Source of the DNA: Chlamydiia bacterium | Lineage (GTDB): Bacteria; Chlamydiota; Chlamydiia; Chlamydiales; JAAKFR01 | DNA length: 38,714 nucleotides | Direction of reading: 5' to 3' | Assembly (NCBI GenBank): GCA_020440555.1 | Contig: JAGRNW010000004.1 | Span: 1 to 38,714 of the forward strand | In this document: one piece after another, positions 3,259-26,006 of the stretch | How positions within the stretch are numbered: position 1 is the stretch's first letter | Layout of the letters: each line of letters starts with the position of its first letter | The notes under the pieces: generated by a model | What the model was told of the DNA's origin: nothing | What the model saw: only the letters and a program-made list of their open reading frames with translations | The model's database searches: none | Made by a program: the position numbers and the translations under genes

Positions 3259-3304
3259 TGGGGCAAGCAGGACTTGAACCTGCGACCTACGGGTTATGAG
3301 TCCG
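3259..3304. repeat. attL of element 2: 3' half of a tRNA(CAU) gene, 46-bp direct repeat
   Basis: These 46 bases match 25907-25952 with a single mismatch (C at 3273 against T at 25921). They correspond to the 3' half of the intact tRNA gene at 25908-25980, from the anticodon to the acceptor end. After 3304 the match ends, so this is not a functional tRNA. It marks the junction between element 1 and element 2. Confidence 0.9.
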
Positions 3305-5855: not shown

Positions 5856-5956
5856 AAAGCTTCCTATCCACATTATTCTTTGATAAGAATCCAAATTTTT
5901 CTATTCTGCTTCCTCAGAAAGATATTTGGAATGAGAAATAAAGGGGAGAAAAGAAG

Positions 5957-6772: not shown

Positions 6773-6797
6773 TAAAGAAGTACACAAGGAGGCTAAC

Positions 6798-7169: not shown

Positions 7170-7182
7170 ATAGGAGATTTTA

Positions 7183-7716
7183 TTGAAAATAAGTTTCTTG
7201 TGGCATTCATTTATTTCATCTTCTCTGCATCTCCACGCCCATGAAAAAGGTGCGCATTTATCGGCAGATGGAAGATGGGATTATGAAAAATGGATCAAAT
7301 GGATTGGAAACTTTCATCCCATAGCTTTGCATTTTCCCATAGCTTTAATCATTATGACGGTTATCGCCGAGCTGTTAGGCATGAAAAGCCGTTCTCCGAT
7401 TTTTGCACAGGCAGCTCGATTCATGATTATCGCAGCAGCCATCACTGCGCTACCCACAGTACTTCTTGGACTAGCATACGGATATGAAGTGAGCTATAAT
7501 GAAACTCTCTCCCTAGTCTTTTGGTGGCACCGCTTTCTCGGGTTATCTACAGCTGGATTGGCGATTGTCACAGTCTGCTTCAAAGAACTTCAGTTACGAA
7601 AAAAAATCGGTGTAACGGCCTATGCAATTTCTCTGTCGTTGCTTGCCATTCTTGTAACTGCTACGGGCTACTTAGGTGGAGAGATGACTTTTGGACTTTT
7701 TCACCTTCTGCCTTAA
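7183..7716 (+). CDS. DUF2231-type integral membrane protein
   Basis: This 177-aa protein has a TTG start at 7183 with TAGGAG upstream, 13 bases after the AhpD-like gene. The sequence shows an N-terminal hydrophobic segment, then FHPIALHFPIAL (around residues 45-56), the His-containing signature of DUF2231, and four hydrophobic helices ending in TATGYLGGEMTFG. DUF2231 proteins are predicted multi-pass inner-membrane proteins, and the histidines could bind heme or metal. They are found in several metal-resistance clusters. The exact function is unknown. Confidence 0.8.
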   Translation: MKISFLWHSFISSSLHLHAHEKGAHLSADGRWDYEKWIKWIGNFHPIALHFPIALIIMTVIAELLGMKSRSPIFAQAARFMIIAAAITALPTVLLGLAYGYEVSYNETLSLVFWWHRFLGLSTAGLAIVTVCFKELQLRKKIGVTAYAISLSLLAILVTATGYLGGEMTFGLFHLLP

Positions 7717-7767
7717 GCTGGCCTTTTTTAAAAATATTTGATACACACATGATGAAATACTTCATGA

Positions 7768-9474: not shown

Positions 9475-9526
9475 AAGAAAGCTCCTTGTGTATTATTTAA
9501 AATTTTTGTTATAGGAACGAGTAAAG

Positions 9527-9868
9527 ATGGGAGAAAAGTTTATGAAAATGCCTGAATGTTTTGATAATTGTTTGCAGTGCATCACTGCTTGTGAGAGATG
9601 TGCGTTTGAATGTTGCGCAAAGATGCCCGATCATGCGGAATGCCTAAAGGCTTGCTTAACCTGCGCTGATGCATGTAGTGCTTGCATTCGAGTCTGTTCA
9701 AGAGGGAGTAAAATAGGGGGAGAGTTTTTAACTCTATGTGTTTCTGCATGCGAAGCGTGTGCTAAAGAGTGTGAAAAACACGAAGATGCTTTATGCCAAG
9801 AGTGCGCTGATGTTTGCCGACAATGTGCAGAAAAATGCAAAGAATGCTGCAAGGCATGTTGCGCTTGA
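9527..9868 (+). CDS. Four-helix-bundle copper-storage-like protein (Csp family, DUF326)
   Basis: This 113-aa protein has 26 cysteines, mostly in CxxC and CxxxC spacing along amphipathic helices (for example CLQCITACERC and CRQCAEKC). That is the pattern of Csp copper-storage proteins, which line the core of a four-helix bundle with thiolates and hold many Cu(I) ions. No signal peptide is visible, so it would act in the cytosol like Csp3. The start is either ATG 9527 or ATG 9542, and the latter has GGGAGA just upstream. It sits directly before the CusCBA genes, fitting a role as a copper sponge feeding or buffering efflux. Confidence 0.88.
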   Translation: MGEKFMKMPECFDNCLQCITACERCAFECCAKMPDHAECLKACLTCADACSACIRVCSRGSKIGGEFLTLCVSACEACAKECEKHEDALCQECADVCRQCAEKCKECCKACCA

Positions 9869-9921
9869 ACACACGAGACGAACAATTGCCATGAATTTGA
9901 GCGGACGGAGAATGGAAAATC

Positions 9922-11268
9922 GTGAGCATCAACCTAAAAATCTTTTTTGCGGCGATATTCTCTATGGTCATTGCCTTTTCTTCAACCCATGGTAATTGTA
10001 TTGATGATCCTTATGACTATTGCTTGGAATATCCTCCAGAACATGCCACTTTGAGTGATTATGTAATCATTGCTGCTTCAAATAACCAAGAACTCGTCGC
10101 AGCTTTTGACCAATGGAAAGCTGCTTTAGAAGTGATCCTTGAAGTCGATGTCCTTCCTGATCCTCGTTTTACATTTCGCTATTTCATCGTTCCGGTAGAA
10201 ACTCGCTCAGGTCCCATGAAGACCTCGTATGCACTCACACAAACATTTCCCTGGATGGGGAAATTACGTTTAAAAGGAGAAAAAGCCGAACAAGAAGCTT
10301 TGGTTTTAAAAACCCGATTTGATCAATTACTTTTGGAAACTGTTTTAAATGTTAAAAAATCCTATTATGAATATGCATATCTTTGTAGATCTATTGGCGT
10401 TACAAAAGAAATCTTGGATATTTTGCGTTACGTTGATGAAGTTGCGAGGAGCGGCTATTCTGCAAGTGATGTTGCTTTTGCCGATGTCATCCGTTCCCAG
10501 GTGGAGCTTGGCAAGGTTGAGGATCGACTACGTAGCCTGGAAGACTTAAAAAAGCCCCTAGCTGCCAAATTGAATGCGGCCATGAACTTGCCTGTCACAT
10601 ATCCTCTACCAATGCCCTGCACTATCCCCGTTATCGAAATTCCTTGCCCTGATGAGAGTCTTGCTTTGTCGCTCAAAGAAAATAATCCTCGCCTTGTCGC
10701 CTTTGACTTTATGGCAAAGAGTGAAGAAGTGGCTATTCGATTGGCAAAAAAGGAATTTTACCCTGACTTCACCTTTGGAGTCGAAACGATTCGCATTGGC
10801 GAAGCTCGTTCTCCTGGAGTTTTTAATAGTGGAAAGGCGCCTTGGAGTGCATCTGTTTCTATTAACGTCCCATTATGGCAAGAGAATCGACGTGCGGCGG
10901 TGAGAAAAGCTAAAAAACGCTTAGATTCAGCTGTAGAGGGTCGACGTGGAAAGGAAGAAAATTTATCCGCTGACCTTGAGCTTGCTCTTTACAAATACCG
11001 AGATGCTCAAAGAAAAATTGACCTCTATGGACAAGCTCTAGTCCCCAAGGCTAAAGAATCTTTAGCTGTTATTTTGGAGGCTTTTACAACTGAGAGAAAG
11101 AACTTTATCGATTTAATCGATGCCGAGCGCACTCTTTTGGAACTTGAGTTGGCTTATGAGCGTTCTCTTGCGGATCAAGCGATCCAAGTTTCTGAAGTAG
11201 AATTTTTAACCGCACAAGAATGGCAGGTAAATGCATGTCTCCCGAACCCCATATGTCAAAGAAGATGA
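9922..11268 (+). CDS. TolC/CusC-family outer-membrane efflux protein
   Basis: This 448-aa outer-membrane channel component of a heavy-metal RND pump starts at GTG 9922, with GGAG about 11 bases upstream. The first 25 residues form a signal peptide (a hydrophobic core followed by THGNC). Two OEP repeats follow: long helical segments around residues 45-210 and 230-430, with FPWMGKLRLKGEKAEQEA characteristic of the CusC/CzcC branch. It overlaps the adaptor gene by 49 bases, so the pump is co-expressed. Together with the next two genes it would form a periplasm-spanning exporter. Confidence 0.88.
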   Translation: MSINLKIFFAAIFSMVIAFSSTHGNCIDDPYDYCLEYPPEHATLSDYVIIAASNNQELVAAFDQWKAALEVILEVDVLPDPRFTFRYFIVPVETRSGPMKTSYALTQTFPWMGKLRLKGEKAEQEALVLKTRFDQLLLETVLNVKKSYYEYAYLCRSIGVTKEILDILRYVDEVARSGYSASDVAFADVIRSQVELGKVEDRLRSLEDLKKPLAAKLNAAMNLPVTYPLPMPCTIPVIEIPCPDESLALSLKENNPRLVAFDFMAKSEEVAIRLAKKEFYPDFTFGVETIRIGEARSPGVFNSGKAPWSASVSINVPLWQENRRAAVRKAKKRLDSAVEGRRGKEENLSADLELALYKYRDAQRKIDLYGQALVPKAKESLAVILEAFTTERKNFIDLIDAERTLLELELAYERSLADQAIQVSEVEFLTAQEWQVNACLPNPICQRR

Positions 11269-12503
11269 AGAAAGGAAAGTGTTGGATTATTAGTGGCGTT
11301 TGTATTCTTGCTGCTTTTGCCGGCGGTTACTTACTTTGCGCAACTAGCAATGGAGATGGGATTCAAGAGGAAAAAAAGCCTCAAATGTCGCAAATGGAAC
11401 ATGGGGTGATGAAAGCCCCTGAAATTGGTGCAATCCCAGAAATCACTCTTTCGAAAAAAGCGCAAATCCTCGCACAAATCGAAGTCTCAGAGGTTATGAG
11501 AAAACCTGTCACGATTACAACTCCTTTCTACGGAACAATCGATTATGATGAAACGCGTCTTGCTAGAATCGCGGCATGGGTTGCGGGAAGGATCGACGCT
11601 CTTTATGTCGATTATTTGGGTAGCCAGGTAGACGAAGGGCAAGCGATGGCTCTTATTTATAGCCCCGAATTGATTACAGCCCAATCCGAACTCATCGAGT
11701 CTAAGAGAATTTTGAAGGACATTAATGAAAGTACGCTCGCCTTTATAAAAAGAAGCTCTCAACTTGGTGAGTCCGCATCCTATCAAAAATTACGCCTTTT
11801 GGGGATCACTGATAAGCAGATCAGCGAGATTCTAGATCGCGGGATTCCATCAGATCATTTAACGCTCCACGCCCCATTGGGTGGAACAGTCATTGATTTG
11901 AAAATTCGAGAAGGTGTTTATGTCAAAACTGGAGAATCTCTCTATGCGATAGCCGATCTAACTGCTCTTTGGCTGATCTGTGAGGCTTATGAATCGGATC
12001 TTCAGTGGATTAAATTAGGCAAAGAAGTAGCTTTTCAAGTAGAAGCTTTTCCTGGTCAAGACTTTAAAGGTACTGTTTCCTATATCGATCCTATGGTCAA
12101 CGAAAAAACGCGAACAGTCAGAGTGCGGATTGATGTGTCGAATAAACAAAATCTGCTCAAACCAGGTATGTTTGTTCAAGCACTTCAACAGACTTATGTC
12201 TCAGAATATCAAAATCAAATGCCTATAGTTATTCCTGCCTCTGCTCCTTTGATCACGGGAAAAAGAGCCGTCGTATACATCGAAAAACTCGATAAGCCAG
12301 GGACTTATGAAGGACGTGTGATTACATTAGGACCCAAAGCAGGCGATTTCTATATCGTAGAAGAGGGACTCAATGAAGGAGAAAGAGTTGTGACGAATGG
12401 GAACTTTAAAATCGACAGCGCGATGCAAATTCAAGCGAAGCCGAGCATGATGAATCCGGCGACTAAACCTAATGTTATTTTTGAAAATCTGCCGGGAGAA
12501 TAA
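11220..12503 (+). CDS. CusB-type periplasmic adaptor of the RND efflux pump
   Basis: This 427-aa membrane-fusion protein has an N-terminal membrane anchor (around residues 19-40), the CusB-like strand YGTIDYDETRLARIAAWV, a barrel-sandwich/lipoyl half (SQVDEGQAMALIYSPEL), a helical hairpin (SELIESKRIL), the second lipoyl half, and a beta-barrel (AFPGQDFKGTVSYIDPMV). The C-terminal domain includes GLNEGERVVTNGNFKIDS. A Met-rich stretch before the core (around residues 55-66, MSQMEHGVMK) may bind Cu(I). Starts at 11220, 11235 or 11253 are all possible; none has a clear ribosome binding site. It lies 3 bases before the CusA gene. Confidence 0.9.
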   Translation: MAGKCMSPEPHMSKKMKKGKCWIISGVCILAAFAGGYLLCATSNGDGIQEEKKPQMSQMEHGVMKAPEIGAIPEITLSKKAQILAQIEVSEVMRKPVTITTPFYGTIDYDETRLARIAAWVAGRIDALYVDYLGSQVDEGQAMALIYSPELITAQSELIESKRILKDINESTLAFIKRSSQLGESASYQKLRLLGITDKQISEILDRGIPSDHLTLHAPLGGTVIDLKIREGVYVKTGESLYAIADLTALWLICEAYESDLQWIKLGKEVAFQVEAFPGQDFKGTVSYIDPMVNEKTRTVRVRIDVSNKQNLLKPGMFVQALQQTYVSEYQNQMPIVIPASAPLITGKRAVVYIEKLDKPGTYEGRVITLGPKAGDFYIVEEGLNEGERVVTNGNFKIDSAMQIQAKPSMMNPATKPNVIFENLPGE

Positions 12504-12506
12504 GTT

Positions 12507-15500
12507 TTGCTCAATCGCTTGATCCGCTCTTGTCTAGAACAAAAACTCGTCGTTTTTCTCGTCACCATTTTAATTGTGATTTGGGGAATTGCGGTTGCTC
12601 CCTTCGATTGGAAGACAGGAAATTTGCCAAGGGATCCTATTGGGGTCGATGCAATTCCCGACATCAGCGACAATTTGCAGATTGTCTTTACTGAGTGGAC
12701 GGGCAGATCACCTCAGGATGTTGAGGATCAGATCACTTATCCTCTCACAACGGCACTTTTAGGGATACCTGGAGTGAGAACAATCCGTAGCTATTCCTTT
12801 TTTGGTTTTTCGACAATCAATATCGTATTTGAAGATAAGATCGATTTTTATTGGTGCCGCTCACGGATCCTCGAGAAAATCAATAGCCTTCCTAGCGGAA
12901 CACTTCCCGAAGAAGTGCAGCCCGTTTTAGGCCCCGATGCAACCGCTCTTGGTCAGATTTTCTGGTACACGATTGAAGGGCGAGATCCCAAGGGAAATCC
13001 CACAGGTGGATGGGATTTAGATGAGCTGAGAACCGTTCAAGATTGGTATGTGCGCTATGCACTTTTAAGTTCGGGGGGTGTAAGTGACGTCGCTTCAATC
13101 GGAGGCTATGTCAAAACCTACTTCATCGATGTAGACCCCGATGCTTTGCGCTATTACAAAATTAGCATCGAAGATGTTTTCCGTGCCGTGAAAATGTCGA
13201 ACTTAGACGTAGGAGCTCGCACAATTGAAATCAACCAAGTGGAATATTTTATTCGCGGCATTGGTTTTATTAAATCCCTAGAGGATGTGGAGAATGCTGT
13301 CATCAAGGCCACAGACAATCTTCCTGTTCGGGTTAAGGATGTTGGAGTTGTCAGCTTTGGTCCCTTTATTCGAAGAGGAGCCTTAAATAAAGAAGGAGCA
13401 GAAGTAGTTGGGGGGATTGTCATCGCAAGATATGGTGAAAACAGCCTTCAGGTTATCAAGAACGTAAAGAAAAAAATCCAAGAAATTTCTGCGGGACTTC
13501 CCTCTAAAGAGCTATCTGATGGAACAAAGAGCCAAATGACAATTGTTCCTTATTACGATCGCACAGGTTTGATCTATGAGACATTGGGAACATTAGACAC
13601 AGCACTCACAGAGGAGATTTTGGTCACCATTATCGTTGTGCTTGTCGGAATCATGCATCTGCGTAGCTCTTTGCTGATCTCCTTTATGCTCCCTATATCG
13701 GTTCTTATCACTTTCATTATCATGAAGTTTTTTAATGTTGAGGCAAATATTGTCTCTTTATCGGGGATTGCGATTGCGATTGGTGCGATTGTCTCAATGG
13801 GAATTTTCATCTGCGAAAATATTTTAAGCTTTATGCAAACTTCCAAAGAGACCAACCGATTGACGTTTGTTTACAAAGCCACAACCGAGGTGGGAAGCGC
13901 TGTGTTAACTGCGGCTGCTACAACAATTGTGAGCTTTCTCCCTGTCTTCACGATGATTGGCCCCGAAGGGAGACTCTTTAAGCCACTTGCTTTCACAAAA
14001 ACCTTTGTCCTTGTGGCATCCATTTTTACAGCACTCTTCATTCTCCCACCTTTGGCTCAAGTACTTTTTACGAGAAGAGAAGAGTATTCTCGCTGGCCAA
14101 AAGTATTGAGAATAGTGATGAGCTCTCTACTTTTTCTTGGTGGGATTTTGGTTGCGATTTGGATTAAATGGTGGATTGGCGTCTTATTCTGTGTGTTAGG
14201 CATATACGCCTTCTTTTCCCCCCAAATACCAGAGAATTGGAGAAAAACTGTCAGCATTGTTGCCAATATTTTTATCATCGTCTTAGTCGGTTTTGTTCTC
14301 ACCAACTATTGGCTACCTCTTGGCCCTGAAAAAGGATTTTTCAGAAATTTGATTTTCGTTGCCTTCCTTTTGGGCGGCTTTCTCCTCGTATTCAAGGTCA
14401 TCCAATGGATCTATCCTACCATATTGAAATGGAGCTTAGCAAATAAAGGGTTAAGTTTGCTCCTTCCTCTTACCCTTACTTGTTTTGGGGTAATCGCTTG
14501 GATTGGCATTCCTAAAGTGACAGAATCATTTCCTTCAGCGATACGCAAATCATTTGTCGTGAAAAAACTTTCTTCCGTTTTCCCTGGTTTTGGGAAAGAA
14601 TTTATGCCTCCTCTTGATGAAGGCTCTTACCTGTATATGCCGATTACAATGCCTCATGCAGGGACTGGAGAGGTGGAAGGGATTATCAAAGAGCAAAATA
14701 TGGCCTTTACCATGATCCCTGAAGTGAGTGAAGTCGTTGGAAAATGGGGTAGAGCGGATACACCAATCGATCCTGCTCCTATTTCCATGTTTGAAACAGT
14801 TATCAATTATTATCCCAAGTATTTTGAAGATGCGAATGGCCGACGCGTGCGGTTTAAATTCGACCCCAAAGGCACCGATTATTTTCGCAATCTTGAAGGA
14901 GAGCCTATTTTAGCTCCCGATGGAAAGCCGTATTATGTTTCGGGAAAATTTGAGAGAAATAAAGAGGGTGATTTAATCCCCGATAAAAATGGGATTCCTT
15001 TTCGCTTGTGGCGCCCCCCTCTAAATCCAACACTGAACAAAGGTAGAGAAGCCTGGAAGGGAGTTAATAGTTCCGAGGATATTTGGAATGCAATCACGGA
15101 AGCAGGACAACTTACAGGAGTAACGACATCACCCAAACTTCAACCCATTGCAGCGCGTATTGTGATGTTGCAGTCAGGCATGCGTGCTCCGATGGGGATT
15201 AAAGTCAGAGGACCTGACCTTGAAACGATTGAAGCCTTTGGCTTGAAATTGGAGAAATACTTAAAGGAAATTCCCTCTGTCTATGCGCCCGCCGTGATTG
15301 CCGATCGGATTGTAGGGAAGCCATATCTTGAGATTGAAATCGATCGAGAAGAGGTGGCGCGTTATGGGCTAATGGTCAATGAAGTCCAAAACTCCATACA
15401 AATAGCGATAGGGGGGATGAAAACGACAACGACAGTTGAAGGAAGAGAACGCTTTCCCGTTCAGGTACGTTATTTTAGAGAACTTCGGGATAATATTGAG

Positions 15501-16379
15501 GAGATGAATCGGGTCCTTTTCACCACACGCTCGGGTGAACAGATTCCTCTTACACAACTTGCTAAAATTCGCTATGTAAGAGGCCCTCAAGTGATTAAAA
15601 GCGAAGATACTTTTCTTGTGGGGTATGTCTTATTTGATAAATTGCCCCAATATGCGGAAGTGGATGTCATTGAAGAGGCTCAAAGGTATTTGAAGAAGAA
15701 AATCGATGATGGAGAACTTAAAGTCCCTCAAGGGGTCTCTTATACATTCTCAGGCACTTATGAAAATCAAATTCGAGCGCAAAAAAAATTGGCCGTGATT
15801 CTTCCGCTTGCCCTTTTTATCATTTTGTTGATTCTCTATTTTCAATTTAAATCATTTGTCACCTCTCTTATTGTTTTCAGTGGAATTGTTATCGCCTGGG
15901 CTGGAGGCTTTTCCTTAATGTGGTTTTATGGAGAGAGTTGGTTCCTTAACTTCAGTATCTTCGGAACTTCAATGAGAGATTTATTCCAAATCCACCCAGT
16001 TAATTTAAGTGTTGCTGTGTGGGTCGGTTTTCTCGTTCTTTTTGGAGTGGCAACAGATAATGGAGTCATCATGGCTACTTGCATTGATCAAACCCAAAAA
16101 GAAAAGAACCCCGATTCGATTGAGGCAATTCGGGAATCGGTGATGGTCGGCGCTATACGCAGAATCCGCCCCGTTATTATGACCTCGGCAACGACCATTC
16201 TAGCATTGCTCCCCGTACTCTCTTCAACAGGGAGAGGTGCTGATGTGATGGTTCCTATGGCAATTCCTTCTTTTGGTGGTATGTTTATCGCTATCCTAAG
16301 CGTGATTGTTGTGCCGGTGCTTTTTTGTTGGGTGCTCGAGATTGGTTTTGCACTCAAAAACAGAACTAAGAATCTATAG
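12507..16379 (+). CDS. CusA/CzcA-family heavy-metal RND transporter, enlarged form
   Basis: This 1290-aa inner-membrane RND transporter would drive proton-coupled export of Cu(I)/Ag(I). It starts with TTG at 12507, 3 bases after the adaptor stop. Hallmarks are DAIPDISDNLQIVFTEW near residue 50, the large periplasmic loops, and the C-terminal MTSATTILALLPVL segment with TGRGADVM. It is about 240 residues longer than E. coli CusA (1047 aa). Extra sequence lies at about residues 515-640, a hydrophobic block with several added membrane helices, and at about 760-850, a polar insertion in the second periplasmic loop (EPILAPDGKPYY region). Similar enlarged CusA proteins exist in other phyla, so this looks like a subfamily trait rather than a fusion error. 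Confidence 0.92.
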   Translation: MLNRLIRSCLEQKLVVFLVTILIVIWGIAVAPFDWKTGNLPRDPIGVDAIPDISDNLQIVFTEWTGRSPQDVEDQITYPLTTALLGIPGVRTIRSYSFFGFSTINIVFEDKIDFYWCRSRILEKINSLPSGTLPEEVQPVLGPDATALGQIFWYTIEGRDPKGNPTGGWDLDELRTVQDWYVRYALLSSGGVSDVASIGGYVKTYFIDVDPDALRYYKISIEDVFRAVKMSNLDVGARTIEINQVEYFIRGIGFIKSLEDVENAVIKATDNLPVRVKDVGVVSFGPFIRRGALNKEGAEVVGGIVIARYGENSLQVIKNVKKKIQEISAGLPSKELSDGTKSQMTIVPYYDRTGLIYETLGTLDTALTEEILVTIIVVLVGIMHLRSSLLISFMLPISVLITFIIMKFFNVEANIVSLSGIAIAIGAIVSMGIFICENILSFMQTSKETNRLTFVYKATTEVGSAVLTAAATTIVSFLPVFTMIGPEGRLFKPLAFTKTFVLVASIFTALFILPPLAQVLFTRREEYSRWPKVLRIVMSSLLFLGGILVAIWIKWWIGVLFCVLGIYAFFSPQIPENWRKTVSIVANIFIIVLVGFVLTNYWLPLGPEKGFFRNLIFVAFLLGGFLLVFKVIQWIYPTILKWSLANKGLSLLLPLTLTCFGVIAWIGIPKVTESFPSAIRKSFVVKKLSSVFPGFGKEFMPPLDEGSYLYMPITMPHAGTGEVEGIIKEQNMAFTMIPEVSEVVGKWGRADTPIDPAPISMFETVINYYPKYFEDANGRRVRFKFDPKGTDYFRNLEGEPILAPDGKPYYVSGKFERNKEGDLIPDKNGIPFRLWRPPLNPTLNKGREAWKGVNSSEDIWNAITEAGQLTGVTTSPKLQPIAARIVMLQSGMRAPMGIKVRGPDLETIEAFGLKLEKYLKEIPSVYAPAVIADRIVGKPYLEIEIDREEVARYGLMVNEVQNSIQIAIGGMKTTTTVEGRERFPVQVRYFRELRDNIEEMNRVLFTTRSGEQIPLTQLAKIRYVRGPQVIKSEDTFLVGYVLFDKLPQYAEVDVIEEAQRYLKKKIDDGELKVPQGVSYTFSGTYENQIRAQKKLAVILPLALFIILLILYFQFKSFVTSLIVFSGIVIAWAGGFSLMWFYGESWFLNFSIFGTSMRDLFQIHPVNLSVAVWVGFLVLFGVATDNGVIMATCIDQTQKEKNPDSIEAIRESVMVGAIRRIRPVIMTSATTILALLPVLSSTGRGADVMVPMAIPSFGGMFIAILSVIVVPVLFCWVLEIGFALKNRTKNL

Positions 16380-17018: not shown

Positions 17019-19748
17019 ATGATGGCTAAACATTTATTCCTTAAAGGGGGAACAAACATTATGCATAACTTAAACATATATGAAAGTGGATTAAACTGTA
17101 AACATTCGATTCTCGAGGAACTACATAACCACATGGCAGCCAATGGGCTTGCTTGTGATAAGGAGATAATTTTTGATGAAAAAATTCATCGTTATTCTTC
17201 CGATACCAAGAAAAATCAGCCTGATGAGTGGTATGTTGGCTTTGAGTGGGTGTCATCGAGAAATAATCTTTGCTTGGTAGTTGTCTACGGGAGTTGGAGT
17301 GCTGGTGCCAAGTTTGCTTTTTACTCTTGGGATAGCCGCAATCAATACCTCGATGAAAAAGAAAGACACGAACTCCATCTTGCTCTCAAAGAACGGCGAG
17401 AACAGGCAGAGCGCGCACTTTTGGAAAAAAGAGAGGAGGTGGCTCTTAAAGCCAGGCAAATATGGGAAGAAAGCGCGATAAGTGCTCCCAGTGACCAACA
17501 TCTCGCTTACGCTCAGCTTAAAAAAATCTCTCCCGCAGGAGCCCGTTTTGGGGATAATCCGCAAGAATTTCCTGCATTAATCCTCCCCCTCATCAACAGT
17601 GAGGGGGAAATCCGTTCTTTGCAGTTCATATCTGTTGGAGCTGAAGAGCGGGTTTATAAAACTTTTCTTTCTGATGGAGAAAAGAAGGGCAATTTTATGG
17701 TGTTGGGAGAATTGCAAGATGGTTCGCGCATCCTCATTGTTGAAGGGTATGCGACAGGATGCTCATGTTTTGAGGCTTTAGGTTGCTCGACTGTCATTGC
17801 CTTTGATTGTGGCAATTTGATGCCTGTGGCAGCTGCGCTGCGCGAGAAATACCCACATTCCGAGATTGTGATTTGTGCTGATGATGATTTTGCGACCGAA
17901 AAGAATCCAGGGCGCAGTGCTGCGATTAGGGCGGCAATTGAGCATAAGTGTAAAGTGGCTGTCCCCATTTTCCCCGATGGGGTCCAAAGGGAAGCTGGAT
18001 GGACTGACTTTAATGACCTGCATTCCGTTTCAGAAACAGCTGAAGTTAAAAAGCAGATTGAAGCCGCTAAGACACCCTTGGAGCTTCTTTTGAAGGAAAT
18101 TGAAGATTCTCCCTTTGATAAAGATAAGCATAAGGAAATCTATTTTTTGGCTTATCACGCTCAGCATCAAGATAATTTATCTGAAAAAGACTTTATTTTG
18201 AATGAGTTAGAGAAAACATTGAAGCCAATGGGAGTAAAGAGAAACACCATCAACAAAGCGTATAAGCAATTCTGTCAAGAATATGTAGATCATGTTCATA
18301 GCATCGTGAATACGAGCCAATTCCCTGAGGATGAGAAAAAAATAATCGATGCTCTGATGGAAATGTACGATACCCCAATCCCCTTAAACCATAAGGGAGA
18401 ACCGCAAGGGATCAATCAAATGTTCTTTGCCAGCAAGTTTGCGCATGAACGATTGATTCTCCATGAGCCGTATGAGAAGGCATTTTATGAATATCAACCC
18501 GATACAGGCTTGTGGGTTCATAAGACTCAAGAGAGGGTTAAAATTGATATGGGAAATAGCTTTTTGCGACTCATTAAGTTTTTCGGCTACAGAGAATTAT
18601 TAATCTCTCGCACTGATCGTACACTCAATCAATTGTTGGGTATCCTAAAAGGGAGTATCGAGCAGGAAGGGGTTTTTCAACGCAAGCGTGGAATTATCCA
18701 TGTGGGTAACGGAGTGCTGCGGTTACACGAAAACCCCGACCAACTGCATGAGTTTAGCCCTGATTATTACTCCAGAAATCGGTCAGAAATTATCTTAGAC
18801 CCTGACGCAGAATGTCCGCGATTCCTTGATGAACTGATTGGTGCAGCGATGTCCGATGAAGATGCAGCACTTTTGCAGAAATACTGTGGTCAATGCTTAT
18901 TGGGTTATAACCCTTCTCAAACCTTTCTATTGCTCCCAGGTACTCCAGGAGGGGGAAAATCGACGTTAGCCAGTATCATCGAAAGAGTGATTGGTCTACA
19001 CAATGTAGCTCAGCTTAAAGTGAATCATCTCTCAGAGAGGTTCGAGGTTGCTTCATTTGTTGGTAAAACGCTTTTGACGGGAAAAGATGTGCCAGGGGAT
19101 TTTTTGAACAATCGCAAAGGCGCGAGTGTACTTAAAGCATTGGTAGGAGGCGATAGATTGTCCGCCGAGCAAAAAAATCTTAAGAGACGTTTCGAAATTG
19201 TTGGAGAATTCAATGTAATTATCACTAGCAATGCACGCCTACATGTAAGCTTGGATGCGGATGCAGGGGCATGGAAAAGGCGCATGTTGATGATTGAATT
19301 CGAACAGCTCCCTCCGAAAAAACCCATTCCTAATTTCGCGGACTATCTTGTCACTAATGAAGGAGCAGGGATTCTTAACTGGATGATTGATGGTGCCATT
19401 GATCTTCTCGAGGAGCTCAAGGTTCACGGACGGATCCAGTTATCAAAAAATCAGGAACGCCGCATCGATGATCTTTTATCGGAATCCGATTCCATTCGCG
19501 CTTTTGTGCAAAGCTGCGTTGAGAAAAGGAAAGGCGACTCTGTCACTGTGCCTGAGCTTGTGGAAGCCTATCACATTTTTTGCGAAGGTAGGGGTTGGCA
19601 GGCAGTATCTGTAACCGCTTTTGAGAATAAGATAAGAAATATCATGCTTGAGATGTTTCAGATCAATAGGCGCAATGATATTAAGCGAGAAGGGAGCCAA
19701 AAAGGGTTTATGCATGTCGCAATATTACGAGATCGACTAGGGGATTAA
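17019..19748 (+). CDS. P4-type primase-helicase (TOPRIM plus D5-family helicase)
   Basis: This 909-aa replication protein combines a TOPRIM primase domain (VEGYATGC near residue 240, ICADDD near 285) with a C-terminal superfamily 3 D5-like helicase. Its Walker A motif GTPGGGKST lies near residue 645, and the following segment includes LLTGKDVPGDF and NVIITSNARL. The N-terminal 170 residues contain the DUF3987/P4-alpha-like zinc-less region and a charged helix. Starts at ATG 17019 and ATG 17061 (with AAAGGGGGAAC upstream) are both possible. It probably initiates replication of the excised element. The repeat cluster starting 28 bp after its stop is a candidate recognition site. Confidence 0.88.
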   Translation: MMAKHLFLKGGTNIMHNLNIYESGLNCKHSILEELHNHMAANGLACDKEIIFDEKIHRYSSDTKKNQPDEWYVGFEWVSSRNNLCLVVVYGSWSAGAKFAFYSWDSRNQYLDEKERHELHLALKERREQAERALLEKREEVALKARQIWEESAISAPSDQHLAYAQLKKISPAGARFGDNPQEFPALILPLINSEGEIRSLQFISVGAEERVYKTFLSDGEKKGNFMVLGELQDGSRILIVEGYATGCSCFEALGCSTVIAFDCGNLMPVAAALREKYPHSEIVICADDDFATEKNPGRSAAIRAAIEHKCKVAVPIFPDGVQREAGWTDFNDLHSVSETAEVKKQIEAAKTPLELLLKEIEDSPFDKDKHKEIYFLAYHAQHQDNLSEKDFILNELEKTLKPMGVKRNTINKAYKQFCQEYVDHVHSIVNTSQFPEDEKKIIDALMEMYDTPIPLNHKGEPQGINQMFFASKFAHERLILHEPYEKAFYEYQPDTGLWVHKTQERVKIDMGNSFLRLIKFFGYRELLISRTDRTLNQLLGILKGSIEQEGVFQRKRGIIHVGNGVLRLHENPDQLHEFSPDYYSRNRSEIILDPDAECPRFLDELIGAAMSDEDAALLQKYCGQCLLGYNPSQTFLLLPGTPGGGKSTLASIIERVIGLHNVAQLKVNHLSERFEVASFVGKTLLTGKDVPGDFLNNRKGASVLKALVGGDRLSAEQKNLKRRFEIVGEFNVIITSNARLHVSLDADAGAWKRRMLMIEFEQLPPKKPIPNFADYLVTNEGAGILNWMIDGAIDLLEELKVHGRIQLSKNQERRIDDLLSESDSIRAFVQSCVEKRKGDSVTVPELVEAYHIFCEGRGWQAVSVTAFENKIRNIMLEMFQINRRNDIKREGSQKGFMHVAILRDRLGD

Positions 19749-19761
19749 GGAGGAGGAAAAA

Positions 19762-20220
19762 ATGCCTATTACACTCGGACGGTTCGGACGGCCAAAATCC
19801 ACTCTTGTATATTCTGAAAGCGAGAAAAATTCTCAAGAAAAAATGTTATCATTGAATCAGCAGGAGGGGAGCATATACCCGTCCGAGACGTCCGTGGATT
19901 CTGATCAAATTACACTTGTGCTCGATTGGCTTTTGATTTGTTTGACGGAAGGGCATATCGAACCTTCTCAGCCGCAGGTTGGGAGGCTTTGCGGATGGCC
20001 TCAACGGCCATTTTTTTGCGAATCCCTCTACATAGATTTTGAATGTTGGTGCATCAAAAAAGATCTACTCCCTCGAGAGAGGACAAGTGGTAAGATATTC
20101 TACTCCATAGTAGATCGAATTTTTACTCGTTGCGGATCAAAATACAACTTTCCTCCCCTAGAGGAATGTCGGGTAAAATTCAAATCTTTAACTTCGAATT
20201 TGAAAAAGAAGGGAGAGTAA
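19762..20220 (+). CDS. Unknown 152-aa element protein whose 5' codons contain the repeat cluster
   Basis: I do not recognise this protein. The ATG follows a strong AAGGAGGAGG site 13 bases after the primase stop, so translation is likely. Residues 1-50 are low-complexity, Ser/Gln-rich and encode two copies of the CGGACG-N3-CGGACG DNA motif, so they may be shaped by DNA function rather than protein function. Residues 52-140 look folded: LVLDWLLICLTEGHIEPSQPQ, then WPQRPFFCESLYIDFECW and a basic C-terminus. It may be a replication accessory or copy-control protein; that is context inference. Confidence 0.6.
   Translation: MPITLGRFGRPKSTLVYSESEKNSQEKMLSLNQQEGSIYPSETSVDSDQITLVLDWLLICLTEGHIEPSQPQVGRLCGWPQRPFFCESLYIDFECWCIKKDLLPRERTSGKIFYSIVDRIFTRCGSKYNFPPLEECRVKFKSLTSNLKKKGE
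19776..19894. other. Putative replication or control locus B: facing CGGACG-N3-CGGACG repeats
   Basis: A forward copy lies at 19776-19790 (spacer GTT) and a reverse copy at 19880-19894 (reverse-complement spacer TCT), with centres about 104 bp apart. The orientation, spacing and internal landmarks (AGCGA followed by an A-rich stretch, then GGAG-N2-GA-N-CATAT just before the reverse copy) match locus A at 3468-3584. It overlaps the start of the 152-aa gene immediately after the primase gene. Confidence 0.55.
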
Positions 20221-20221
20221 A

Positions 20222-20932
20222 ATGACTGAAATACAAAAAGAAAAACAGCCTAAGAAGTTACCTGTTCTCGAATCAACTCCAATGAAATTTTGGCATAGTG
20301 AGAAAGAGCATGATGTCGTCCTCAAGCTAAAAGAGGGTGAAATCAAAGCAGACGCTTTTTTTGAAAAGTTGAAGGAGATCACAGGGGTCAAAGATACAGA
20401 ACTTGCATCGAATATCATCGATACGGGTTCCAATACAATTAGGCCGGTTGTAAAGGAAGATGATGCATTAAATATCATCGCGCAGACCCTACATGATTTT
20501 GGTCCTAGGAATGCAATAGAGGCTCGTCTCGCCCTTCAGGCTAATGCCCTATTTACCCATGGTATGACCAATCTAAGACGTTCTGCTACGGCCGATATGC
20601 TTTGCCATAGCGAGCATTACGTCAATAAAGCAATCAAGCTTCTGCGGCTCCATAATGAAACGATAGAGGCTCTTAATCGTTTTAGGCGAGGAGGAGAGCA
20701 GAAGATCGTCGTTCAACATAGTGTACTTGCCGATAAAGCGGTGGTTAATTTCCCAGGGGGAGGGGAAAAGAAAAATGAAGGAGAGACCCCATGTTCGAGA
20801 AATTATGCGGCGCAAAAGCCAGGACAAACGGCCATAGACCATGCCGGCAGCCCGCCATGGCCAATGGAAAATGCAGATTGCACGGAGGCAAAAGTTCAGG
20901 TCCCAAAACAGAAAAAGGGAAGAAAAGAGTGA
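20222..20932 (+). CDS. Conserved island/phage hypothetical protein (236 aa)
   Basis: The central part (around residues 95-165) contains IEARLALQANALFTHGMTNL and LRLHNETIEALNRFR. These segments recall hypothetical proteins on prophages and islands of intracellular bacteria that sit before small HGG-motif proteins. Residues 1-80 are charged and helical. The last 47 residues, from the point where a second gene begins in another frame, look low-complexity. A GAAGGGAGAG site precedes the ATG, and it is 1 base from the previous stop. Function unknown; I see no catalytic motif. Confidence 0.65.
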   Translation: MTEIQKEKQPKKLPVLESTPMKFWHSEKEHDVVLKLKEGEIKADAFFEKLKEITGVKDTELASNIIDTGSNTIRPVVKEDDALNIIAQTLHDFGPRNAIEARLALQANALFTHGMTNLRRSATADMLCHSEHYVNKAIKLLRLHNETIEALNRFRRGGEQKIVVQHSVLADKAVVNFPGGGEKKNEGETPCSRNYAAQKPGQTAIDHAGSPPWPMENADCTEAKVQVPKQKKGRKE

Positions 20933-21039
20933 AAGAAGTAAATACGAAGCACGGCTTCTATTCGATTGAATCAGAAAATCAGAAGAAATTAGTAAGAAAT
21001 CTTATTTATAGTTCCAAAGAAAATTTACCCATAGAATAA
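20791..21039 (+). CDS. Small HGGKS-motif protein overlapping the previous gene
   Basis: This 82-aa basic protein has the pattern CGAKARTNGHRPCRQPAM, then CRLHGGKSSGPKTEKGKKR, then KHGFYS. That is a widespread small phage/island family with two Cys-x-n-Cys/His pairs suggesting a zinc-binding fold. ATG 20791 has GAAGGAGAG upstream. It overlaps the 236-aa gene by 142 bases in a different frame. The conserved motif lies inside the overlap, so this frame is probably the functional one there. Function unknown, perhaps nucleic-acid binding. Confidence 0.68.
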   Translation: MFEKLCGAKARTNGHRPCRQPAMANGKCRLHGGKSSGPKTEKGKKRVKEVNTKHGFYSIESENQKKLVRNLIYSSKENLPIE

Positions 21040-21044
21040 ATCGC

Positions 21045-21902
21045 TTACAATGCTTTTATACTCCAGACAGTTGAAGATTTTTTCCGATATGGCTCAAGGT
21101 CTATTTCCTGTAGAAGAGGGATGGATTTGTAATCGACAGCACCTTTTCGCGTCGAGAGGGTCACTCGGATACCACCACCTTCACAGCTTTTGCTATTGGC
21201 CAATGCGATAAGTTCTTCGCGCAAATATTTTTCCTCTGATTCTAGGCTTTTGAGATTCTCTTGCACATATCGCCATTTTTCGGCTTTTTCCCTCCAGATA
21301 TTATCTTCCCTCTGTTCATAGTCGCGGTCGGTTAAGGGAGGGGGTGTATTTGACTGCATACTTTGGAAAAATGCCCCCTCTTTTTCAAGCATTTGGTCGA
21401 TGTAGGCTTCATCTTTTTTTACCTCAATGAGAACGCCTTGACTACCATCAAAACTATAATAGAATCCAAGATCAAGGTCAGTAGCAGCAAGTTGATGTTG
21501 GAGTTGAGGATAATATTTCTCAGGGACCTTTCCCTCATGAGCCAGAACTTGATCCACCTTCCCAGGGCACTTTATTTCAACCAAGATCGCTTGATCAATA
21601 TCGATCCCATCCAGGCTCGCAATCATCCACTCATGGACTGTGCTTTGGACAACACGAGGGAATATAACGACTCCCGTGGCCTTTTCAAAAGCGAGTCGAG
21701 CTTTTTCTTCGAGTTCATGTCCTCGTTGCATATGAGGCTTTGCTGCTGGTTTTGGAGCTTCTCCTCTTTTTTCCAGCCATAATTGAAAAGGGGTTTTCCA
21801 AGGAGAGACTCCCATGATGATGGGGGCATCGCTACTGCCAATTTTTTCTAAACGGAATTTTTCCCATTCGGCTGTGTTTTGATCTAGGTTAAGAAAGCGC
21901 AT
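21045..21902 (-). CDS. YqaJ-type (lambda-exonuclease-like) recombination nuclease
   Basis: This 285-aa protein is a phage-type exonuclease of the YqaJ/RecB-like PDDEXK group. Visible motifs are IGSSDAPIIMG (residues 21-31), GHELEEKARLAFE (61-73), D98, and the catalytic LVEIKCPG (E109, K111) followed by Q134 in YPQLQHQLAA. Such enzymes resect a DNA 5' end to give a 3' single strand. It overlaps the RecT-like gene by 14 bases, and the two would form a two-component recombination system. The C-terminal 80 residues are a coiled-coil-prone charged region and a short tail. Confidence 0.87.
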   Translation of the reverse strand: MRFLNLDQNTAEWEKFRLEKIGSSDAPIIMGVSPWKTPFQLWLEKRGEAPKPAAKPHMQRGHELEEKARLAFEKATGVVIFPRVVQSTVHEWMIASLDGIDIDQAILVEIKCPGKVDQVLAHEGKVPEKYYPQLQHQLAATDLDLGFYYSFDGSQGVLIEVKKDEAYIDQMLEKEGAFFQSMQSNTPPPLTDRDYEQREDNIWREKAEKWRYVQENLKSLESEEKYLREELIALANSKSCEGGGIRVTLSTRKGAVDYKSIPLLQEIDLEPYRKKSSTVWSIKAL

Positions 21903-22554
21903 GTTGTTCTCCTTTTGCAGTTACAATTTTTGAAATACGACCCCATTGGCTTTGTGGAATTTCTTCAATATTTGATACCCCAAAAAATTGAAGGAGCCGT
22001 TTTTTAAGCTGAGGATCGCTTTTTAAGCTCTGTTCAACCTCCTGGTGTCCTCCTCTCATGTTATAAGAAGGATTCTCAATTTCTCCTTCGACATAGCATC
22101 CTTTAATGACATCGGGGAAAAGCATGCGACCTAAGTTAGAAAGCGCACGTGCAAAGAGCATGTTCCGAGGATATTTGGTCCAACCAGTGCCTTCTAGATA
22201 AATTCCAGCCCGCTTTGCATCGTTGATGGAGAAAGTCTCGGTCCATGCGTCACCTGTATCCGCTCGCTTTCCGTGCAAGATGCATTCAGTATCATTTGAT
22301 TTCTCGTCTTTAGAGATGGAATGGCCTGCTTGTCTTATAAGCTGATTCATCAAAAATGCTGACATTTCGACCTTACCTTGAACGTAGTACATGCCGCCGT
22401 TTAGGGCGTCTAATGGATTGACATTAGTGGCTTTTGCTTTTTGTATAATGGCGAAGATCCCTTCAGCACCTAAGCGCTGGTAATGCTTGGTTTTGAGAAG
22501 CGAATCGACGAGCATTCGAACTTCTTGAAGATCATTGATAATCTCTTGTGTCAT
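21889..22554 (-). CDS. RecT-like single-strand annealing protein
   Basis: This 221-aa protein resembles RecT/Bet-type annealing proteins. GIFAIIQKAKATNVNPLDALNG, then MYYVQGKVEMSAFLMNQLIR, and later GWTKYPRNMLFARALSNLGR and ARxxFPDVIxGCYxxGE-like text are typical of the phage RecT family. It would anneal the single strands made by the YqaJ exonuclease next to it, helping recombination or replication restart. ATG 22554 has an AGGAGA site. It is the first gene of a two-gene operon divergent from the XRE gene. Confidence 0.82.
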   Translation of the reverse strand: MTQEIINDLQEVRMLVDSLLKTKHYQRLGAEGIFAIIQKAKATNVNPLDALNGGMYYVQGKVEMSAFLMNQLIRQAGHSISKDEKSNDTECILHGKRADTGDAWTETFSINDAKRAGIYLEGTGWTKYPRNMLFARALSNLGRMLFPDVIKGCYVEGEIENPSYNMRGGHQEVEQSLKSDPQLKKRLLQFFGVSNIEEIPQSQWGRISKIVTAKGEQHALS

Positions 22555-22957: not shown

Positions 22958-23338
22958 ATGAGTAAGGTAAAGAAGCCTGTATTATGGGTCGGCTCATCGA
23001 AAAGCGACTTGATGGAGATGCCTGCTGAGGTTGTGACGGATTTTGGATACGGTCTCTATCAAGCACAGACCGGCGCTTATCCCGACATAGCCAAGACTCT
23101 CAGCGGTTTTGGTGGTGCCAGCGTTATGGAGTTAAAACTGGACCACAGAGCAGGGACCTTTCGAACTGTTTACACAGTCAAGTTTGCTGATGCGATTGTT
23201 GTACTGCACGCCTTTCAAAAGAAGAGCAAGAGCGGTATTGCGACACCAAAAAAAGAAATGGAACTCGTTCGCTCTCGGTTAAAATTAGCCGAGCAACTTT
23301 ATAAAGAATGGAAGCATAAAAAGGGTAAAAACTCATGA
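22958..23338 (+). CDS. HigB/RelE-like type II toxin (Gp49-type)
   Basis: This 126-aa protein fits the phage-derived Gp49/HigB-like toxin family. It shows LDHRAGTFRTVYTVKF followed by IVVLHAFQKKSKSGIATP and a C-terminal LKLAEQLYKEWK helix, the conserved strand-and-helix part of ribosome-dependent mRNA interferases. The K and R residues in AFQKKS and RTVY are the usual catalytic neighbourhood. The toxin comes first and overlaps the antitoxin by 4 bases, the HigBA order. It probably stabilises the element. Confidence 0.88.
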   Translation: MSKVKKPVLWVGSSKSDLMEMPAEVVTDFGYGLYQAQTGAYPDIAKTLSGFGGASVMELKLDHRAGTFRTVYTVKFADAIVVLHAFQKKSKSGIATPKKEMELVRSRLKLAEQLYKEWKHKKGKNS

Positions 23339-23673
23339 CTAAAAAAAAGAAAGACTTTGAGATCACTACAGACAATATTTTTGCTGATCTTGGTTTGGAA
23401 CAGTCAGATGAGTTGATGGCTAGGGCAAAACTACTGCTTGAAGTTGGGACTCTGATTAAGGCGAGCGGCCTTTCCCAAAGAGAAGTAGCTCAAAAGCTAG
23501 GCATTTCCCAGCCGAAAGTCTCTATGCTGATTTCTGGTCGCCTCTCTGCTTTTAGTACGGATACATTGCTGCATTATTTATCCATTCTTGGGTGCGACGT
23601 TCAGATCCATGTACGCAAGCCAAGGTCCCGAGTAGGTATTTTTCGTCACAAGGGGTGTATTGCTGTTCGCTAA
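23335..23673 (+). CDS. HigA-like XRE antitoxin
   Basis: This 112-aa protein carries an XRE-type HTH (SGLSQREVAQKLGISQPKVS, around residues 43-62) within the HTH_37 antitoxin layout, with LISGRLSAFSTDTLLHYLSI after it. An acidic N-terminal segment could bind the toxin. It overlaps the toxin gene (ATGA) and likely represses the operon. Its stop abuts the convergent stop of the next gene without spacing. Confidence 0.88.
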   Translation: MTKKKKDFEITTDNIFADLGLEQSDELMARAKLLLEVGTLIKASGLSQREVAQKLGISQPKVSMLISGRLSAFSTDTLLHYLSILGCDVQIHVRKPRSRVGIFRHKGCIAVR

Positions 23674-24576
23674 TCACTGAATCGATTCTCCCGCATAAAG
23701 CCATGATTGACCTGCAACACTTCTTGCTATATCCGATTCTAATAACATTTTTGGTGTGATGCGTTGATTGTCAGGTAAATTCCTAGAAGCGCGATTAAAA
23801 CAATTATTTAAATGGGTTCTTTCGATTTGCGCTCCATGCATGTTGACGAAGACTAGGTCTTCCTTTTTCTTCTTAGAGAGATAATCTTTTAGTTCTTGCA
23901 TCACATGTCTTGGATATTTCACTGAAAATTCTTCAAATTTAACCATATTTTCTTTGAGATGTACTTGACCTACTTTCAAACGCAATACCTTATCCATGGT
24001 AGGGGCCCCAAAATAGAGAAGTTTAGCAATTAGGGCTTCGCGGTCAGGAAGAAATTGTATGAATTTGATAAATGTATTGTAATAAACAACTTTTTTAATA
24101 GTTCTTTGAAAATCTGGATCTTCCCCCTGTACGATTAATCTTAGTGTTTGATTGCAAATATGTTGAGATAACGTGATATAAGCTGCGACTATACTCTCCT
24201 TTTTATCAATACTCAGATCAGGAAGACACCGGATTTCTTCGATAATTTTTTGATGCTCATCTACGGTTAGATCATTAAGGGTACGTAATTCTCCGTTTTC
24301 GTTTGTGGTTTTAAGTAACTTAAGATCAATGAGCAGAAGGATGTTAGATTCATATTCTGCAATACGTTGAGGGGTTAAATCCAGGCTCTGAAGCCAATTT
24401 TGAATTTCAGCCACTATAGGAATTTGCGCAAGGGTTTCACGAAAAGTTCGAATAGCTGCTCCGAGCTCTTGGTTCGCGTTTCTTAGTTGGACTCCATATT
24501 GCTGGGGAGATAGCATAGGAGGTAGGTTTTCTAATTTCTCCAAGCATTGATCCCAGAAGGTTATTGTTTTTTCCAT
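23674..24576 (-). CDS. Degenerate tyrosine-recombinase-like protein, chlamydial pGP7/pGP8-like
   Basis: This 300-aa protein lies 13 bases downstream of the integrase with a good AAGGAGA ribosome binding site. The C-terminal half follows the tyrosine-recombinase pattern, but every catalytic position seems replaced. The box I equivalent reads FGAPTMDKVLRLKVGQV (no Arg at the GLR position). The HxLRH box reads TPKMLLES (His to Lys, Arg to Leu, His to Glu). No clear H/W then Tyr motif follows. From memory the layout (KLLYFGAPTMDKVL, then YPRHVMQELKDYL, then LVFVNMHG, then RITPKML) resembles pGP8 of chlamydial plasmids. It may be a non-catalytic partner controlling recombination; an alternative is a decaying gene, but the intact frame argues against that. 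Confidence 0.65.
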   Translation of the reverse strand: MEKTITFWDQCLEKLENLPPMLSPQQYGVQLRNANQELGAAIRTFRETLAQIPIVAEIQNWLQSLDLTPQRIAEYESNILLLIDLKLLKTTNENGELRTLNDLTVDEHQKIIEEIRCLPDLSIDKKESIVAAYITLSQHICNQTLRLIVQGEDPDFQRTIKKVVYYNTFIKFIQFLPDREALIAKLLYFGAPTMDKVLRLKVGQVHLKENMVKFEEFSVKYPRHVMQELKDYLSKKKKEDLVFVNMHGAQIERTHLNNCFNRASRNLPDNQRITPKMLLESDIARSVAGQSWLYAGESIQ

Positions 24577-24589
24577 AAAGTCTCCTTAT

Positions 24590-25654
24590 TTAATAGCCGA
24601 AAATCTTTCGATTCATATCGGCTACTGCATTTTTTTTGTGATCTTCCGACAAATGAGAATATCTCTTTGCCATTTGCAAATCTTTATGACCTAACACATC
24701 GGCGACTTCAACAAGAGAGGCGCCATTCATGACCATGTATGAGGCGCAGGAATGCCGTAGATCGTGAAATGTAAAATCAGCGACGTTAGCCTTTTTTAAA
24801 GCTGTTTCCCAAGGAGATCTTAGATCCATTGGAACATTAGATTTTTTTTTACTAGGGAACGCTAAATCTGTGTCGATTGTTCGTTTAGCAGCAAGCTCAC
24901 GTAGCAGTTTGGAAGCAAGACCCATGAGAGGAACGACGCGTATTTCCCCATTTTTCGTCTCATAGAGTGTGATTCTATCTTTTTCGAAATCAATATCCTT
25001 CCAACGAAGATTCATGATTTCACCTTGTCGCATTCCAGTGGAGATTGCGAGTACTACAACGGTGTAAAGAAAGGGGTTCTTGCTTGCCTGACACTGCTCA
25101 AGTAGTCGGGTTCTCTCATCAAGATCCAAAAAGCGAACTCTTCCTCTGGGTTGCCTTGGTTTGGTTACTTTGCGTAGTGGATTATCTTCGAGCCAACCCC
25201 ATTCCTTAACGGCGACCGTGAATGCATGCGATAAAGCTGATAAGTAGCGCACAACAGTAGAAGGGGATCTCACTGATCCTCTTGGAGTTTTTCCTTGCAG
25301 GAGTTGGTCTCGATGCTCGCCAATTAATGCAGGGGTAATATCGGAAAGTAAGCAGTAGCCGATCTTCTCTTTCCACCAGAGCAACTGCATATTGATGTTG
25401 TAAGCGTTTTTAGGCTTCTTAGGGAGCTCTTCGCTAAGGTATTTATCAATCATCATCCCTATGGTCTTTTTCTTGGCTTCAGCGGCTTTAAAATAGCGCC
25501 CTTCCTTCATGGCAGCTTCAGTTCTTTGCGCCCATCGCTTTGCATCTGTTTTTCTATCAAAGGTAGCAGTTTGCTGCGGAAAGCCTAATAAGCGGATTTG
25601 GGCACGATATTTTGTTTTTCCATCTGCGGAGGTTCTTTTTTCAATGTATGCCAT
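24590..25654 (-). CDS. Tyrosine-recombinase integrase of element 2
   Basis: This 354-aa integrase has residues 1-60 as an N-terminal arm-binding-like domain, 64-165 core-binding, and 175-345 catalytic. The catalytic residues are R209 (STGMRQGE), K234, H297 and R300 (HDLRH), H323 (LGHKD) and Y332, all intact. It reads away from the tRNA gene and starts 253 bases from the att core. It is followed by the pGP8-like protein in one transcript. It should recombine the 46-bp cores at 3259-3304 and 25907-25952. Confidence 0.94.
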   Translation of the reverse strand: MAYIEKRTSADGKTKYRAQIRLLGFPQQTATFDRKTDAKRWAQRTEAAMKEGRYFKAAEAKKKTIGMMIDKYLSEELPKKPKNAYNINMQLLWWKEKIGYCLLSDITPALIGEHRDQLLQGKTPRGSVRSPSTVVRYLSALSHAFTVAVKEWGWLEDNPLRKVTKPRQPRGRVRFLDLDERTRLLEQCQASKNPFLYTVVVLAISTGMRQGEIMNLRWKDIDFEKDRITLYETKNGEIRVVPLMGLASKLLRELAAKRTIDTDLAFPSKKKSNVPMDLRSPWETALKKANVADFTFHDLRHSCASYMVMNGASLVEVADVLGHKDLQMAKRYSHLSEDHKKNAVADMNRKIFGY

Positions 25655-25833: not shown

Positions 25834-25906
25834 TGTTTTACAAGGGTAGACTATTTTTTAGAGAATTATGTCTCTAATCTATTTGGGATTAGGGAGATAA
25901 AGGAAA

Positions 25907-25952
25907 TGGGGCAAGCAGGATTTGAACCTGCGACCTACGGGTTATGAGTCCG
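25907..25952. repeat. attR of element 2: 46-bp core inside the intact tRNA gene
   Basis: This is the direct-repeat partner of 3259-3304 with one mismatch at 25921. The core spans the tRNA from its 3' end to the anticodon arm. Integration therefore keeps the tRNA functional at this end. Confidence 0.9.
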
Positions 25953-25980
25953 CTGCTCTAACCGACTGAGCTATTGCCCC
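25908..25980 (-). tRNA. tRNA with CAU anticodon (elongator Met or Ile2), integration target
   Basis: The reverse complement folds as a 73-nt cloverleaf: 7-bp acceptor stem GGGGCAA/TTGCCCC, a D-arm AGCTCAGTCGGTTAGAGC, the anticodon loop CTCATAA, and a T-arm with GGTTCAAATCC. No CCA is encoded. The anticodon stem ends in an A-C mismatch next to the loop. CAU can mean elongator Met or, after lysidine modification, Ile (AUA); sequence alone does not let me decide. It is not the initiator type, since it lacks the GGG/CCC anticodon-stem pairs. Confidence 0.93.
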
Positions 25981-26006
25981 AAGAAACAAGCATCTTATCT
26001 TACAAC

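Follow-up and report, generated by a model that had tools for sequence, protein, structure and literature searches.

Within the window, the whole 38,714-nt stretch of DNA that was analysed, a gene on the reverse strand (23674-24576 (-), ATG start) encodes a 300-residue, apparently non-catalytic protein with a predicted tyrosine-recombinase fold, hereafter called the partner. It lies directly behind the gene of an intact tyrosine integrase of 354 residues (24590-25654 (-); R209, K234, H297, R300, H323 and Y332), from which it is separated by a 13-nt spacer carrying the Shine-Dalgarno motif AAGGAG (24577-24589 (-)). From the end of the integrase to the start of the partner the coding strand reads ...GGC TAT TAA ATAAGGAGACTTT ATG, with 5 nt between AAGGAG and the ATG; the 13-base spacing and the strong ribosome binding site pointed out in the initial annotation of this DNA can both be read directly at this junction. 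Directly beyond the partner gene there is no second recombinase; the place is taken by a convergent HigA-like antitoxin gene, which abuts the end of the partner gene and is part of a HigBA-like toxin-antitoxin pair (22958-23673).

The integration target, a tRNA-Met gene with anticodon CAT (25906-25981 (-)), is located 252 bp upstream of the integrase start. The 3' part of this tRNA gene constitutes the right att repeat (25907-25952), 45 of whose 46 bases are identical in the left repeat (3259-3304; matches expected by chance, 0), and the two repeats enclose an island of about 22.6 kb (3305-25906). In addition to a metal-resistance cargo, consisting of a heavy-metal P-type ATPase with metal-binding domains, an outer-membrane efflux protein, a CusB-like fusion protein and an AcrB/CusA-type pump (3642-16379), the island carries a phage-satellite-like replication and recombination set made up of a D5/DUF5906 primase, a YqaJ exonuclease and a RecT-like protein (17019-22554). 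DUF5906 genes recur in other islands that bear the integrase-partner pair (L105, L106 and L060). The left att copy is directly adjoined on its left by another integrase of this family (2030-3103 (-)), which is followed by a YhcG-type nuclease gene and not by a dead recombinase (positions 960-3304 in all); two islands are accordingly arranged in tandem at one tRNA-Met gene, the second without a partner.

Single-sequence profiles relate the partner to tyrosine recombinases weakly (Pfam Phage_integrase, E = 2e-4, under the curated cut-off; XerA model, 4.5e-5), and a profile search of the PDB adds weak XerC-like matches; the same search returned a multicystatin match over 40 residues, which was taken as spurious, and comparison with PHROGs gave no useful family. 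Kinship is clear by predicted structure: an AlphaFold model of the partner, calculated from seven homologues (pLDDT 86.9, pTM 0.77), has as its best PDB fold matches in Foldseek XerA, IntI4, XerH, Tn1549 Int and Cre (probability 1.00, E from 1e-5), and contains the core-binding and catalytic domain fold of PF00589 tyrosine recombinases. Global TM-scores to these recombinases are low (about 0.36), probably because the two domains sit differently, as expected without DNA. The tyrosine-recombinase layout originally proposed for the 300-residue protein thus agrees with both the profiles and the structure matches, and the possibility that its fold would turn out to be unrelated to these enzymes is countered by the prediction.

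An alignment of 65 sequences (27 partner homologues, 19 integrases and 19 pGP7/8 proteins) indicates that the catalytic set R-K-HxxR-H/W-Y is wholly missing from the window partner. The box-I Arg is replaced by Thr or Pro (FGAPTMDKVL), the β-hairpin Lys is deleted, the HxxR position reads KMLL, with Lys and Leu in place of His and Arg, and the final His and Tyr are absent; the nucleophilic Tyr is lost because the protein stops where the HxxR helix starts, a truncation that removes the final third of the catalytic domain. Besides the loss of the Arg, His-Arg and His positions that had already been noticed, the alignment therefore adds that of the Tyr and the Lys, and no catalytic residues were found at shifted positions in the window copy, an outcome that had been named as a possible refutation. 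Across the family, HxxR, His and Tyr are missing from 27 of 27 homologues, which share the same end point, and the hairpin Lys is cleanly kept in none of them (0/27; two members have a K in that column); loss of the box-I Arg is not uniform, since an Arg displaced by one column is retained in several distant members from the family's other half. As far as its residues allow one to judge, the partner is catalytically dead, as first suggested.

When a twelve-member profile was searched against 234 Chlamydiota genomes, 64 had matches. By score these are of two kinds, the pseudo-recombinases reaching at least 212 bits and the pGP7/8-like proteins no more than 129. Members also occur in four IMG/VR contigs, and together the Chlamydiota genomes and viral contigs supplied 27 full-length partner homologues. 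These form one clade in the tree (100/99), and share a branch with pGP7/8 (100/100), to which they are 25-30% identical, well apart from 20 integrases. The partner family hence appears to be a sister lineage of plasmid pGP7/8, the third lineage of that family, and the 100/100 branch upholds the link between a chromosomal island and the chlamydial plasmid lineage that had been drawn for this locus. Two long-branched truncated copies group near the dead clade, with unsure placement; one is on a plasmid-sized contig (G019 C2) and the other on a 12-kb contig (G071 C25), each of which also carries an intact pGP7/8. Moreover, an intact pGP7/8-like integrase is found alone at the tRNA-Leu(TAA) gene used by many of the pairs (L115:5594-6748) and, like a close intact relative (L044:7484-8674), it branches close to the root of the dead clade (86/90); it may represent the ancestral type.

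The state of the two plasmid proteins was compared in seven two-copy plasmids (L016, L017, L018, L021, L022, L024 and L029), where pGP8 was assigned by the rule that CDS2/pGP8 is the sole inverted gene of the chlamydial plasmid (PMC7259575). In all seven, pGP8 (CDS2) retains HxxR, GH and Tyr, and its box-I Arg is kept in at least six, one plasmid not being cleanly readable at this position; pGP7 (CDS1), by contrast, shows a box-I RK swap and a change of GH to CL in 7/7, with HxxR and Tyr kept. Plasmid pGP8 is thus predicted to be catalytically intact and pGP7 to be its degenerate copy. The resemblance to pGP8 claimed in the initial annotation did not survive this comparison, as the window partner matches neither pattern and falls into the separate clade of dead partners. 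In the portion of Koestlbacher et al. (PMC7846284) drawn on here, pGP7/8 are treated as a single integrase family, specific to chlamydiae and derived from viruses, and their catalytic state and pairing are not discussed. The rule of one intact and one degenerate copy on these plasmids points to pGP7 as a possible non-catalytic partner of pGP8.

The arrangement seen in the window recurs in 19 of the 27 members, in which the gene immediately 5' of the partner encodes an integrase belonging to the window integrase's family. The two genes overlap in 13 of these 19 pairs, by 4 to 35 nt when the longest-ORF starts are used, so that some overlaps may be overcalled, and in four more they lie within 27 nt of each other; overlap and spacing suggest that integrase and partner belong to one operon and are translationally coupled. 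A complete active site is kept in 18 of the 19 paired integrases, the remaining copy (G176) being frameshifted before the Tyr; the proposed coupling to an apparently active integrase is therefore a conserved feature, and the active site of the window integrase is itself complete. The neighbouring tRNA gene is tRNA-Leu(TAA) in 14 pairs, with one to three genes between pair and tRNA in some cases, tRNA-Met in three and tRNA-Tyr in one, the last pair being at a contig end; given three different tRNA targets, the partner follows the integrase and not one site.

Over the 19 pairs, the more alike two integrases are, the more alike are their partners (pairwise identities, Mantel r = 0.84, 0/20,000 permutations), as expected for co-inheritance, a pattern that linkage alone can give. 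For the partner pN/pS is 0.30-0.53, for the integrase 0.16-0.34, with silent sites saturated (pS about 0.65-0.82), and amino-acid sites of the partner evolve about 1.3 to 2 times faster than those of its integrase; these values indicate that the partner family is under purifying selection. Because the same two-gene pair is found in many chlamydial relatives, the partner is probably a helper or a brake rather than junk.

Another feature setting the partner family apart is its charge, which averages +2.0 per protein, compared with +17.7 for pGP7/8 and +23.6 for the integrases; the core-binding domain has a mean of -1.0 as opposed to +6.1 in pGP7/8, and the catalytic domain one of +4.3 as opposed to +10.1 (the window partner has a pI of 6.6, a figure for the whole protein). 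In addition, R116, E127, V130, D153, Y188 and H224 are invariant or nearly so in the partner family, unlike in pGP7/8. Together, the loss of charge and the new invariants suggest that strong DNA binding was lost and that a conserved, probably protein-binding surface was gained, and the lost positive charge favours an accessory subunit bound to protein over a repressor bound to DNA.

Eight of the 27 members have no adjoining integrase, from which it follows that an integrase in cis is not always needed. Two such lone copies lie inside virion operons of tailed-phage contigs (L051:7920-9420, and L061/L062, at L062:7812-8594), the first of which encodes portal, major head and virion proteins. No integrase domain was matched in L051 or L061/L062, contigs that may be incomplete, and a phage-integrase scan of the phage contigs was positive for one of them alone, the one in which the pair is also found. 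The phage host is probably a chlamydia, considering that 62 of 68 genomes from the order have the PtsN-like gene which adjoins the partner in L051, and that five chlamydial genomes encode relatives of the L051 capsid. Other lone dead recombinases are found about 2.4 kb downstream of a cas1 gene (L038:3342-7663) and adjoining a DarT-macro-domain fusion gene (L034:2273-4753).

We consider the partner to be a conserved pseudo-recombinase made in step with the integrase and, with somewhat better than even confidence, its accessory subunit. The protein would join the integrase or its att complex, translational coupling would keep its synthesis in step with that of the adjacent enzyme, and integration and excision at tRNA genes would either require it or take their rate or direction from it; both the contact with the integrase and the effect on recombination are here deduced rather than observed. 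Recombinase protomers normally donate their C-terminal tail to a neighbour. With the active-site helices, the Tyr and this tail missing, the partner should be able neither to cut DNA nor to close the normal recombinase ring, and its only possible part would consequently be a structural or restraining one. Since the nearest functional precedents are GinC and Tfp, the reading as an accessory subunit is preferred; the regulatory subunit envisaged at the outset remains plausible. The immunity factor that had been offered beside it has a structural precedent in MrpR, but both the loss of positive charge and the coupling to the integrase argue in the other direction.

The main rival, which we regard as unlikely, is that the partner is a DNA-binding repressor of the element, acting in lysogeny or immunity as a recombinase fold turned transcription factor in the manner of MrpR and SroF. 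The fold search indeed returns MrpR (8a0a, E 2e-3), YopR (8bj6) and SroF (9rd5, 6e-4) beside the recombinases, MrpR, which lacks the catalytic Arg and His, is the master repressor of SPbeta (PMC10516654), and the lone copies in phages would suit such a role. However, MrpR is described as holding DNA in a positively charged groove, whereas the chlamydial partners have lost most of their positive charge, chiefly in the core-binding domain; it also keeps the C-terminal helices, Lys and Tyr that the chlamydial family has lost, and the partner gene is coupled to the integrase and not placed in a regulatory region.

The partner might alternatively be a dominant-negative subunit that holds back recombination in mixed complexes and keeps the island integrated, with the lone copies of the phages acting against resident islands. 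Its retention of the core-binding and part of the catalytic domain without the C-terminal donor helix would give it the look of a ring cap, stoichiometric co-translation with the integrase would suit it, and the phage copies have no detected integrase; but recombination depends on GinC, the precedent closest in function, which does not inhibit it, and we give this brake little credence. Still more doubtful is a site-recognition factor that descends from an ancestral pGP7/8-type integrase with tRNA-Leu as its target, the newer integrase doing the cutting: the intact pGP7/8-like integrase that sits alone at the same tRNA-Leu(TAA) in L115, its relative in L044 and their position near the clade base would fit, yet pairs are also found at tRNA-Met, tRNA-Tyr and tRNA-Ser, and the charge for DNA binding has been lost. 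A functionless, decaying remnant of a duplicated integrase, although in line with the loss of all catalytic residues and with the faster amino-acid change, is very improbable and already contradicted, being ruled out by frames that are open in nearly all members, the end point common to 27 sequences, a pN/pS far below 1 and residues that are fixed across the dead family yet differ in pGP7/8.

The accessory subunit that we favour may not be the only kind of protein made from this position. The integrase family has matches in 103 of the 234 genomes, mostly without a pseudo-recombinase partner, and many of its loci have another gene next, as at 2030-3103 of the window. In three genomes (L122, L123 and L124) the integrase is followed by an untruncated, seemingly catalytically dead pGP7/8-like protein; these three form a clade of their own (100/100), and two of them are at tRNA-Ser. 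In at least seven loci (L126, L129, L132, L137, L138, L140 and L141) an unrelated conserved protein of about 200 residues, which matches no Pfam family, abuts or overlaps the integrase. With several partner types behind the integrase, this position gives the impression of a slot in which a partner gene is placed. A broader proposal, which we advance only as speculation with low odds in its favour, is that the slot gene of chlamydial tRNA islands is an exchangeable non-catalytic control subunit, be it the truncated pseudo-recombinase, the full-length degenerate one or the protein of about 200 residues, and that tailed phages of chlamydiae adopted the pseudo-recombinase by itself, within the virion operon, as a means of controlling the integrases that resident satellite-like islands encode.

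In summary, the partner is a real and conserved companion of the integrase, previously undescribed within the literature searched, whose function we infer from its sequence; an incomplete search of that literature found no published description of a chlamydial integrase paired with a dead partner. Degenerate recombinases as required integrase partners are known from a few proteobacterial islands. The Chlamydiota pair is an apparently independent and widespread case, and, its partner being built from the pGP7/8 family, it provides a handle both on integrase partners and on plasmid pGP7/8.

Among known systems, pGP7/pGP8 and their chromosomal relatives (PMC7846284) are closest by descent, sharing with the partner a recombinase clade, the phylum and the level of identity given above, and their plasmids likewise carry one apparently intact and one degenerate copy. 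The partner differs from them in ending before HxxR, in its lost charge, in its separate clade and in its coupling, on islands of the chromosome, to an unrelated integrase; by its residues pGP8 is intact, and even pGP7 keeps HxxR and Tyr. GinC of the GInts, a degenerate recombinase essential for excision and integration (PMC5385486), and Tfp of the strand-biased circularizing elements (SEs), which lacks RHRY and is coupled, likely translationally, to intA/intB (PMC10214605), are also degenerate proteins of recombinase fold in an operon with active integrases, a likeness to the chlamydial partner that is one of description. In those systems the operon comprises two active recombinases and, as its fourth product, a small protein (GinD/Srap), whereas the chlamydial pair has one integrase and no GinD/Srap neighbour and is found at tRNA genes of Chlamydiota. 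MrpR (YopR) of SPbeta and SroF of phi3T share the recombinase fold and a place on bacterial mobile elements, with loss of catalysis shown for MrpR, but are DNA-binding repressors, MrpR having a positive groove and a full C-terminal domain. Finally, RIT elements (recombinase in trio) resemble the chlamydial loci in their adjoining recombinase genes, but line up three recombinases in a row, where the chlamydial pair joins one apparently active integrase to one apparently dead partner.
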